Shown: positions 6,166 to 12,949 of the stretch, in pieces
Layout of the letters: each line of letters opens with the position of its first letter
How positions within the stretch are numbered: position 1 is the stretch's first letter
Source of the DNA: a virus
DNA: 64,000 bases
IMG/VR virus record: IMGVR_UViG_3300031857_007891
Span: 1 to 64,000 of that record
Strand: one strand, 5' to 3'
The notes under the pieces: model-generated
What the model was told of the DNA's origin: nothing
The model's input: only the letters and a program-made list of their open reading frames with translations
Databases searched by the model: none
Program-made: the position numbers and the translations under genes

Positions 6166-6173
6166 TAACTTTG
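6166..6173 (+). promoter_or_regulatory. Bacteroidota-type promoter (-7) opening the right arm
   Basis: TAACTTTG is an exact match to TAnnTTTG. The expected transcription start near 6179 leaves a leader of about 26 nt before the ATG at 6205. The region 6101-6204 is thus a divergent promoter region between the left and right arms. No clear -33 TTG. Confidence 0.6.
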
Positions 6174-6204: not shown

Positions 6205-6345
6205 ATGTCTAAGATTAAAGCAGGTACGTCGAATTCATTCAGTCCAAACCCTAGAAGAAAGAGACCAGGGGTACATTCTAAGAAGAAGTTCTCAAAACTA
6301 AAAAGTTCAAAACTTTACAAAAAAGTTTCTAGAGGGCAAGGTTAA
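6205..6345 (+). CDS. 46-aa highly basic protein
   Basis: A short gene (MSKIKAGTSNSFSPNPRRKR..., ending SRGQG) with about a third Lys/Arg. The core PNPRRKRPGVHSKK and the tail KKVSRGQG recall small conserved proteins I know from Bacteroidota phages, all without known function. Its charge suggests nucleic-acid binding or packaging with the genome. It is the first gene after the late promoter at 6166, and its stop directly precedes the promoter of the structured RNA candidate. Confidence 0.75.
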   Translation: MSKIKAGTSNSFSPNPRRKRPGVHSKKKFSKLKSSKLYKKVSRGQG

Positions 6346-6350
6346 TTTGT

Positions 6351-6358
6351 TACATTTG
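6351..6358 (+). promoter_or_regulatory. Bacteroidota-type promoter (-7) of the RNA candidate
   Basis: TACATTTG is an exact TAnnTTTG match, identical to the element before the GroES-like gene (12105-12112). Using the 5-nt spacing seen at three other promoters, transcription should start at 6364, the first base of the closing helix of the RNA candidate. The element overlaps ATTTGTTAC (6345-6353), the same half-site as in the 5306-5332 inverted repeat. Confidence 0.6.
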
Positions 6359-6363
6359 CAGAT

Positions 6364-6575
6364 AGCAACCATCCACTTTGGATGATCACCCCTGAGGGCC
6401 AAAGGTAAGTAGGGGGTCAGACGTTGGGTTCTATCATACTCATTCTCAATTACATAGAGTATGAAAGTTGTCCCCGATAGTTGCTGAAATGGAATTGACA
6501 TAAGGTTCTGGGGTGGATCAAGACTATAGGCTGAAAGAAATGTCCCACCGAAGGCTAAAGACGGCAGAACTGAAA
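6364..6575 (+). ncRNA. candidate structured noncoding RNA
   Basis: The gap 6346-6658 has no gene but folds well. Domain 1: AGCAAC 6364-6369 closes with GTTGCT 6480-6485. Inside are hairpin CATCC/GGATG (6370-6384), helix CCCCT 6389-6393/AGGGG 6411-6415, and a long stem GGG...CT...TCATACTC 6434-6441/GAGTATGA 6457-6464, continued by AG and CCC. Domain 2: GTTCTG 6505-6510 closes with CAGAAC 6565-6570, with GGTGG 6512-6516/CCACC 6545-6549 and GAC 6522-6524/GTC 6542-6544 inside. A promoter sits exactly upstream. It matches no RNA family I know. It could be a trans-acting RNA, a packaging RNA or a long leader of the fibre operon. The 3' end is uncertain. Confidence 0.55.
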
Positions 6576-6658
6576 ATCAATTTTAAACAAAAAAATCTCT
6601 AAGGGGATAGGTGTGCCCAATTGGGAAATTATCCTTACCTTTATCTAAATTTTTAGAA

Positions 6659-6889
6659 ATGGCAACTAACATTAAAGCAGGGCTATATCAACCCCCATTT
6701 ACTGAAGGGGATGAGAACCTAAGTTATATGCTAGTTTACATAGATGATAAAGTTGTGCAGTTTCTAGATGAGGATGAGAAGTTCGTCTGCCAATTCTCGT
6801 ATGAAGAACTCAGAGGGATAATGGCTATCATGGCTGCAGAGCAGGAGAAGACACACCTTAGAATACAAGCTCAAGTTAGAAAAAACTAA
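6659..6889 (+). CDS. small protein preceding the fibre gene
   Basis: 76 residues from the ATG at 6659 (MATNIKAGLYQPPF). A longer frame from 6611 would add an unlikely leader. The protein is acidic with a strand-rich middle (YMLVYIDDKVVQFLDEDEKFVCQF) and a helical, charged C-terminus. No family is recognised. It ends in a TAATG overlap with the 777-aa fibre gene, so translation is coupled. It could be a fibre chaperone or a small tail component. Confidence 0.75.
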   Translation: MATNIKAGLYQPPFTEGDENLSYMLVYIDDKVVQFLDEDEKFVCQFSYEELRGIMAIMAAEQEKTHLRIQAQVRKN

Positions 6890-9224: not shown

Positions 9225-9470
9225 ATGATAACAGCAATTCTTCCAAGCCCGTTGATTTACTTCAACACTACCCTGACCAAGTTAAAGTGGGCAATGACCT
9301 ACCCCGACAACGTGGCCTACTACCAGTTAACGACAGCAGATGACCTTATCCTAAAGGATGGTCAGTGTTTCATTGACGACGCCACGGTTCAGTCTTGGGG
9401 GGCGGACGATACAATCATTACGGATGCCATAATCGCATTGGCTCCATGGAATATACAAATACCAGAATAA
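9225..9470 (+). CDS. small fibre-associated protein with unusual codon use
   Basis: 81 residues (MITAILPSPLIYFN...). No family is recognised. The middle reads as a short beta domain (YYQLTTADDLILKDGQCFIDD). It stands out by base composition: many codons end in C or G (GAC, GCC, AAC, TAC), unlike the AT-rich genes around it, so it may be recently acquired. It lies 2 nt after the fibre gene and overlaps the next gene by one base, so it is probably a fibre cap, chaperone or tip protein. That role is inference. Confidence 0.75.
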   Translation: MITAILPSPLIYFNTTLTKLKWAMTYPDNVAYYQLTTADDLILKDGQCFIDDATVQSWGADDTIITDAIIALAPWNIQIPE

Positions 9471-10531
9471 TGCAAAACTTAGATAAAGCACTAAGACTCC
9501 TTAACCTCCCAACAGAGCTAGGAGCAATCAATGGACAGATCAATAAGAGAACAACTAAGTCTCTAATTGAGAACTGCTTGATGGATTTTACTAAGATGGT
9601 AAAGAATCCCACAACTGGGAAGTCTGAACCTACGACTACATTTAGCTATGTCATCGAGTCATCTGAATCTTTATTCGGAGCTTACCCACTAAACTTAGTT
9701 GCTATTCACTTGCATTCTAGTAATATGGAATTGGTTAGCACGGAGAATAATTCATTCACTCTCTATCGGCCATTCCAGGAGATAACTATATCTGACACAC
9801 AGACAAGTTGGGTGGGATGGAATGAAATATCTATTGTCCCTACGGCTAATGGGTATGACTACAACTTCTACTACGAGCAGGGCTTCAACAGCTACTTCGG
9901 GGTGTACTACCCACACGACGAAAACATCACGTGGAGGTCTATCTTAAGAAAGACATTTATCAAAACCACATCTACACCCAATCCCACCCGATTCAGTAAG
10001 TCATACCCTAAATACACTATTGCTGAACTTAAAAGAAAAACAGGGTTTACAGACCGTCAGTTAGCTGAAGCGTTTGGGACTACATGGCATGTAGAGCTTA
10101 AGAGTCCAGCTACTCACTGCCTTAACTTAGCAAGTGATATTGTAGTTATAAGTAATGAGATAGTAAAAGGAGAAGCGTATATCAATGGAATCCTCAGCAG
10201 AAACATCATGTATAAAACTCTGATTAGCTCTTACTTTAAGCTACTCCCAGACTTTGTTTGCAGATGGAAACTGTATAATGATAAGTTTACTACAGGCGGG
10301 GATAATGTATTTGGCACTGCTTGGAATAAGACTATTTCATCTACTGCAGATACTACCTTGAATCTTAAGAAGGGTACAGCTGTTAGTTATGATTCTACAA
10401 CTAATACACTAACCTATCCACCAAATAGTAGACTTGTATTTGACTATGAATTCCTCCCAGCTCAGGGAAAGAATGAAACCAATGGTTCACAACTCTACTT
10501 AGATACAATGACTAAAGAGTTATTCATATGA
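9470..10531 (+). CDS. unknown 353-aa protein in the fibre operon
   Basis: The start at 9470 (MQNLDKALRLL) is chosen because its ATG shares a base with the previous stop; an earlier in-frame start at 9395 would cut into that gene. The N-terminus is helical and the middle aromatic and beta-rich (YDYNFYYEQGFNSYFGVYY). A segment YTIAELKRKTGFTDRQLAEAFG looks like a helix-turn-helix or small helical bundle, and the C-terminal 100 residues are beta-rich. The aromatic patch (about 9850-9945) uses C-ending codons foreign to the flanks. Fibre or receptor-binding accessory by position only. Confidence 0.75.
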   Translation: MQNLDKALRLLNLPTELGAINGQINKRTTKSLIENCLMDFTKMVKNPTTGKSEPTTTFSYVIESSESLFGAYPLNLVAIHLHSSNMELVSTENNSFTLYRPFQEITISDTQTSWVGWNEISIVPTANGYDYNFYYEQGFNSYFGVYYPHDENITWRSILRKTFIKTTSTPNPTRFSKSYPKYTIAELKRKTGFTDRQLAEAFGTTWHVELKSPATHCLNLASDIVVISNEIVKGEAYINGILSRNIMYKTLISSYFKLLPDFVCRWKLYNDKFTTGGDNVFGTAWNKTISSTADTTLNLKKGTAVSYDSTTNTLTYPPNSRLVFDYEFLPAQGKNETNGSQLYLDTMTKELFI

Positions 10532-12645: not shown

Positions 12646-12949
12646 CATTACTGTAGATTCTACTAAGAAATTCCTGCAAGCTTTTAATGGGATTTTTAAC
12701 ATGACGTCTATGGAGTTGTCAGTATTAGCTGAGCTTCTAGACCATGGGGACACGGTCAATCTATGTTCCCCGGATAATAAGCGTAAAGTATCAAAGCTTT
12801 TAGAAATCAAGGACCACAACACCCTGAATAACTATGTTAAAAGACTTAAGGATAAGAAAGCTATCATAAAGTCTAAAGATGGGTACGTGATTAACCCTGT
12901 TTTAAGGAAGCAAGACTCTCAAATCATTATAACTATCAAGAATGGATGA
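12632..12949 (+). CDS. winged-helix-like DNA-binding protein
   Basis: 105 residues. MTSMELSVLAELLDHG, NKRKVSKLLEIKDHNTLNNYVKRLKDKKAIIKSKDGYVINP reads as a winged helix-turn-helix: helix, helix, recognition helix with Asn/Tyr/Lys, then a beta wing (AIIKSKDGYVINP). It resembles MarR/Rep-type folds in phage regulators. Possible roles are a late-gene regulator or a terminase-associated DNA binder; it lies between the co-chaperonin and packaging genes. Fold likely, role unknown. Confidence 0.7.
   Translation: MKKFNITVDSTKKFLQAFNGIFNMTSMELSVLAELLDHGDTVNLCSPDNKRKVSKLLEIKDHNTLNNYVKRLKDKKAIIKSKDGYVINPVLRKQDSQIIITIKNG

Follow-up and report, generated by a model that had tools for sequence, protein, structure and literature searches.

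What is encoded in a gene-free stretch at the head of a phage's late genes, and does it serve the adjoining operon or act in its own right? The question is raised by a window of 64,000 nt (the whole stretch of DNA analyzed here) from an uncultured crass-like phage, one of a group that ranks among the most abundant human gut viruses. The window derives from an IMG/VR record of 69.7 kb; its terminase, portal, capsid and endolysin match phage families, the terminase having a best identity of 42% to those of named crass-like phages, and its + strand carries nearly all genes from 6364 to the window end. Between the open reading frames at 6205–6345 and 6659–6889, a stretch that is indeed free of genes, the + strand holds a structured RNA at 6364–6618. 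The features of the locus, all on the + strand, are as follows:

6205–6345, +: 46-aa basic ORF ending in RGQG, the lineage-specific upstream neighbor of the RNA
6351–6358, +: −7 promoter box TACATTTG of the Bacteroidota TAnnTTTG type, exact; the same box recurs with like placement at 31 loci
6364–6369, +: P1 5' strand AGCAAC, predicted 5' end of the RNA; covaries with 6480–6485 in all lineages
6370–6384, +: P2 hairpin CATCC-ACTTT-GGATG; double changes in 5 of 5 pairs
6388–6417, +: P3 ACCCCT/GGGGGT with inner GCC/GGT; double changes in 5 of 6 P3 pairs in the diverse alignment
6418–6424, +: junction J3/4 and start of P4, consensus CAGAAGU (here CAGACGT); near-invariant in phage and MAG copies
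6423–6428, +: P4 5' strand GTTGGG, pairing with 6473–6478; 100% paired in both alignments
6435–6463, +: P4b CATACTC/GAGTATG; double changes in 6 of 7 pairs (13 relatives) and 7 of 7 (diverse alignment)
6473–6478, +: P4 3' strand CCCGAT, within the near-invariant GTTGTCCCCGATAG; conserved in sequence
6480–6485, +: P1 3' strand GTTGCT; covaries with 6364–6369
6490–6498, +: P5 5' strand, pairing with 6577–6585 and closing the second domain; double changes in 4 of 9 pairs
6505–6510, +: P6 5' strand GTTCTG, pairing with 6565–6570; double changes in both alignments
6512–6549, +: P7 GGTGG/CCACC and P7b GAC/GTC around the GACTATAGGCTGAAAGAAATG loop; UA to AU to GC and GC to AU exchanges
6577–6585, +: P5 3' strand TCAATTTTA, just beyond the end first annotated; from the alignment of 13 relatives
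6601–6616, +: 3' tail AAGGGG....TGTG; conserved in crass-like members and in cr118_1
6659–6889, +: 76-aa ORF, the first gene 3' of the RNA, starting 41 nt on; the gene for a 777-aa fiber-like protein comes after it

Covariation and anatomy of the RNA

The folding energy of the single sequence is unremarkable (z −0.67 for 6351–6575 and z −1.44 for 6364–6600) and, not being significant, was rejected as support. The evidence comes from relatives: a scan with the window terminase collected 80 related contigs, 25 of which carry DNA similar to the element, kept even where the fiber gene is not. In 13 relatives aligned with MAFFT, without fitting to the structure, pairing holds in 93.7% of cells and double changes affect 29 of the 56 pairs, as against 15.0 ± 2.3 in shuffles and at most 8 in slid structures, the latter control partly favoring the structure because this was drawn from the window fold and inspection of relatives. 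In 20 diverse members, whose alignment was fitted to the covariance model, the covariation score is 0.583 versus 0.157 when shuffled and at most 0.079 when slid. Helix cells contain 63 G.U as against 9 A.C mismatches, which identifies the + strand as the RNA strand. The closing helix P1 exists as AGCAAC/GTTGCT, TGCAAC/GTTGCA, CTCACC/GGTGAG, ATCTC/GAGAT, ACTGC/GCAGT, GTGGC/GCCAC, ACAGC/GCTGT, GAAAC/GTTTC, GATAAC/GTTATC and CACGAAC/GTTCGTG. Compensating changes in related phages, on which the structured-RNA reading of the initial annotation had been staked, are thus found far beyond chance.

The universal core of about 125 nt is a four-way junction of P1, P2, P3 and P4, with P4b, whose joining segments CAGAAGU, UCGGG/CCCGA, GUUGU and AUAG are near-invariant. 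P4 is supported by a metagenome-assembled genome (MAG), G036, the second of the two multi-copy MAGs considered below: several of its copies read GGA/UCC instead of GGG/CCC. To this core the crass-like members add, as lineage features, a second hairpin domain (P5–P7) and a conserved tail, AAGGGG....TRTR; bacterial copies have a short P5-like hairpin in place of that domain, and across the family the RNA measures about 160–300 nt. The two closed, branched domains proposed earlier are therefore real, being closed by P1 (6364–6369/6480–6485) and P5 (6490–6498/6577–6585), but the end placed at 6575 cuts P5, and the conserved tail reaches about 6618. Two occurrences of a AGGCUNAAAG-like sequence lie at 6522–6570 within the second domain, one in the P7 loop and one after P7.

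Several further elements were considered and set aside: a helix P8 (GCU/GGC) in the second domain, which collides with P6 and fails in relatives; a pairing of the tail GGGGAUA with UUGUCCCC, which lacks covariation support, both being nearly constant; an NTG start codon in the tail, whose position is inconsistent; and a likeness of AGAAGUC to the hairpin ribozyme, which the loop anatomy does not fit.

Promoter, ends and neighboring genes

P1 begins 5 nt after the −7 box TACATTTG. The + strand of the window holds 31 occurrences of TAnnTTTG, so a single box alone means little; what carries weight is its placement across loci. Among the 36 such boxes found within 70 nt upstream, 31 sit 11–13 nt before P1 and 5 elsewhere, and the loci with this placement span several lineages, including the non-crass-like L180, L159, L158, L166 and L162. 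The predicted start thus coincides with the closing helix, in keeping with the earlier placement of the start on the first base of P1. The promoter had also been called exact, which holds for the −7 box but not for the −33 box: the latter is not conserved, reading TTTC in the window, and only 2 of the 31 loci have a correctly spaced TTTG. L058, L066, L073, L076 and their kin are without a TAnnTTTG box, and their P1 lies close behind the stop codon of a small gene; in the broad set of loci only 6 of 33 have TAnnTTTG just upstream, the rest showing other AT-rich motifs or none. A promoter of its own, as expected of a trans-acting small RNA gene, is hence seen in 31 loci and unseen in others. A further TAnnTTTG box (TAACTTTG) lies at 6166, about 40 nt 5' of the 46-aa ORF.

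At the other end, a U-tract terminator, likewise expected of such a gene, follows the RNA in none of the 33 broad loci and, in weak form, in one of 46 crass-like loci; MAG copies have 3' hairpins without a U-tract. A discrete 3' end is therefore putative. In L115, L120, L125 and L132 a conserved hairpin, CAATTAATTTCC..GGAAATAAATTG, also without a U-tract, lies 3' of the RNA tail.

Crass-like copies of the RNA invariably stand at the front of the rightward late block and share the orientation of the late genes, whatever the first gene is; the next ORF mostly begins 12–150 nt 3' of the RNA. Because it heads this block without a terminator, the crass-like RNA must be a leader of the late mRNA unless it is processed. 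The first downstream gene differs between crass-like lineages, and the predicted flanking genes in L159 and L184 oppose the direction of the RNA. The suggestion that it leads a fiber operon thus stands as regards position in crass-like phages and fails as regards any specificity for fibers. In other phages the next gene is 200–800 nt away, and in MAG copies it is mostly convergent. The position expected of a put-like or EAR-like antitermination leader, between a promoter and the genes it controls, is therefore seen in crass-like phages but not in L159, L184 or most MAG copies.

The independence of the RNA from its neighbors also appears at the protein level: the 68 nearest neighbor proteins fall into 43 Pfam families, none found in more than two, and no binding partner was found. 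Homing endonucleases, considered as partners, lie beside a few copies and form no recurrent family. A 42–46-aa basic protein, RPGVHxKTKxSxxKxSKxYKKxYRGQG(R), lies near the RNA in many environmental crass-like phages (6205–6345 in the window, and in the genomes of L050, L066, L071, L098 and L159); it has no PHROG family and is missing from all 11 named phages tested. As a partner of the RNA it was rejected, being lineage-specific and not linked in general.

Distribution in phages and bacteria

Motif scans checked with the covariance models R1 and R2, together with a search with R1, confirmed the RNA in about 120 distinct records from viruses, a number that includes some near-identical strains; the carrying viral contigs range up to 165 kb. 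The search with R1 covered 94 sources and detected the RNA in 39 of them, with E-values below 1e-27. Near-complete crass-like genomes carry one copy each. Among 11 named crass-like or related phages it occurs in one, the gut phage cr118_1 (E 1e-13 with R1 and 4e-21 with R2), in a divergent intergenic region just 5' of the rightward late genes. This phage is uncultured, and every cultured crass-like phage tested is without the RNA. In L157 it comes after a tRNA array, and the L162 contig holds a second, weak copy at 12821–12912, a tmRNA at 2693–2941 and a type-P3 twister ribozyme at 9433–9496.

Among bacteria, two rumen Bacteroidales MAGs carry 12 and 16–18 dispersed copies, and one Chitinophagales MAG and a few other genomes carry one each. 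Under strict filters the RNA turned up in 3 of 344 genomes from Bacteroidales and in 1 of 395 from Bacteroidota; since scans of more than 40 genomes used these stricter filters, the bacterial frequency is a lower bound. In the family of the first MAG only that MAG is positive (1 of 40 genomes; 0 of 39 others). Such rarity in Bacteroidota genomes indicates that this is not a housekeeping RNA of the phylum. The MAG copies have about 100 nt of upstream sequence in common, and most G035 copies show repeated TGCAACGA / TCGTTGCA motifs 5' of the promoter. MAG copies are often found at the 3' side of a convergently oriented gene whose product resembles a type IX secretion sorting domain at its C-terminus (..GVYIVKVGN..KVVVVR), as at L237, L241, L244, L246, L250, L252–L255 and L257.

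Possible roles and known RNAs

One covariance model recognizes this core both in the roughly 120 viral records, which differ widely in size, and in the two rumen bacteria. Since the RNA is kept while the neighboring genes change, it must serve something general. Among the functions named in the initial annotation, whose observation was right and understated and whose interpretation as a whole is partly supported, a regulatory RNA, a broad class, is the most likely. On balance, the RNA probably represents a new class of stand-alone, protein-binding RNA, acting in trans, that is carried by many Bacteroidota phages. It would be transcribed from its own promoter, beginning with the first pair of P1, and it folds into the four-way junction P1–P4, in which the junction and P4 are near-invariant and which lineage-specific 3' domains follow. 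It probably acts in trans by binding a protein or ribonucleoprotein that Bacteroidota cells have in common, and binding would redirect or block that host component during infection; in crass-like phages the RNA would double as the 5' leader of a long late transcript. This stand-alone reading is favored because downstream genes vary, the flanking genes in L159 and L184 oppose the RNA, MAG neighbors are mostly convergent and no neighbor family recurs. Against it stand the scarcity of U-tract terminators, the low share of broad loci with TAnnTTTG just upstream, the failure to find a binding partner and the constant co-direction with the late genes in crass-like phages, which a leader explains equally well. 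A more far-reaching proposal, put forward tentatively, is that unrelated Bacteroidota phages share this undescribed functional class and use its four-way junction to take over a host machine, that it was amplified in some Bacteroidales chromosomes and that it has no counterpart among known phage RNAs.

The main rival, though somewhat unlikely, is that the RNA acts in cis as a late-operon leader, the nascent transcript modifying the host RNA polymerase for put-like or EAR-like processive antitermination and thereby allowing readthrough of the late block. Since the host RNA polymerase is thought to transcribe the late genes of crass-like phages (PMC10136315, PMC8375218), it is a fair one. The RNA starts at a host-type promoter and heads the crass-like rightward block, a terminator is lacking, and the divergent intergenic setting in cr118_1 fits as well; but other phages and the MAGs have a next gene that either converges on the RNA or lies hundreds of bases off, most named crass-like phages tested are without the RNA, and a second −7 box lies just 3' of it in 14 of 46 loci, mostly of one clade. 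The dispersed copies in the two rumen MAGs, their shared upstream sequence and the absence of the RNA from the 39 other genomes of one MAG's family recall a mobile or selfish RNA element, one that proliferates within certain genomes and that phages carry. The single copy in phage genomes and the lack of a linked integrase, reverse transcriptase or endonuclease family make this improbable. It is highly improbable that the RNA is a primer or other replication-origin RNA at a divergent gene boundary: the crass-like RNA does sit at a switch of strand and GC skew, but the skew follows gene strand and so is not diagnostic, elsewhere the RNA is not at such a boundary, and bacterial copies are many. 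Least likely of all is a packaging RNA as in phi29, which the initial annotation had offered. In L132, L115, L120, L125 and L155 the RNA lies just 5' of a putative small terminase gene, yet it is also carried by very different phages with unrelated neighbors and, in multiple copies, by bacterial chromosomes, and the window has a large terminase, so that the proposal is unsupported.

As to known RNAs, the initial annotation, which could assign the RNA to no family, was borne out. None of the 4227 families of Rfam 15 (including GOLLD, ROOL, 6S, tmRNA and the group I intron) scores above its gathering threshold over the element, the sole such match in the window being a tRNA; a permissive search over the element gave chance matches only, and the RNAs of 16 relatives matched no family. 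A promoter-proximal structured RNA outside known families is thus supported by covariation, box placement and the Rfam searches alike. Searches of open full-text literature, including papers on crass-like phages, gave no description of it, though other papers, or supplementary tables such as those of PMC8040213, could still contain one. A Ro60/Y RNA was rejected, as TROVE (PF05731) is found in 0 of 11 carrying genomes, the control phage crAss001 being positive, and so was a DGR or retron RNA, reverse transcriptase (PF00078) likewise being found in 0 of 11.

GOLLD and ROOL, whose function is unknown, are structured RNAs borne by phages or prophages and sometimes near tRNA genes (PMC12286853). 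The present RNA resembles them as a phage-borne structured RNA that in L157 lies beside a tRNA array, but at about 160–300 nt, against 650–830 nt, it has a four-way junction core and no covariance match to them. With 6S-flavo (RF01685), Bacteroidales-1 (RF01693) and Flavo-1 (RF01705) it shares being a structured non-coding RNA of Bacteroidota, yet none of these matches the window region at E up to 10. The pRNA of phi29 is likewise a small phage RNA, without a match here, whereas the present RNA has a broad phage range and bacterial copies. The HK022 put RNA and the Bacillus EAR are antitermination leaders. They too are structured RNAs at the start of a long transcript; unlike them, the RNA described here also occurs without a co-directional downstream gene, and its core of about 125 nt offers RNA biologists a compact, testable object.
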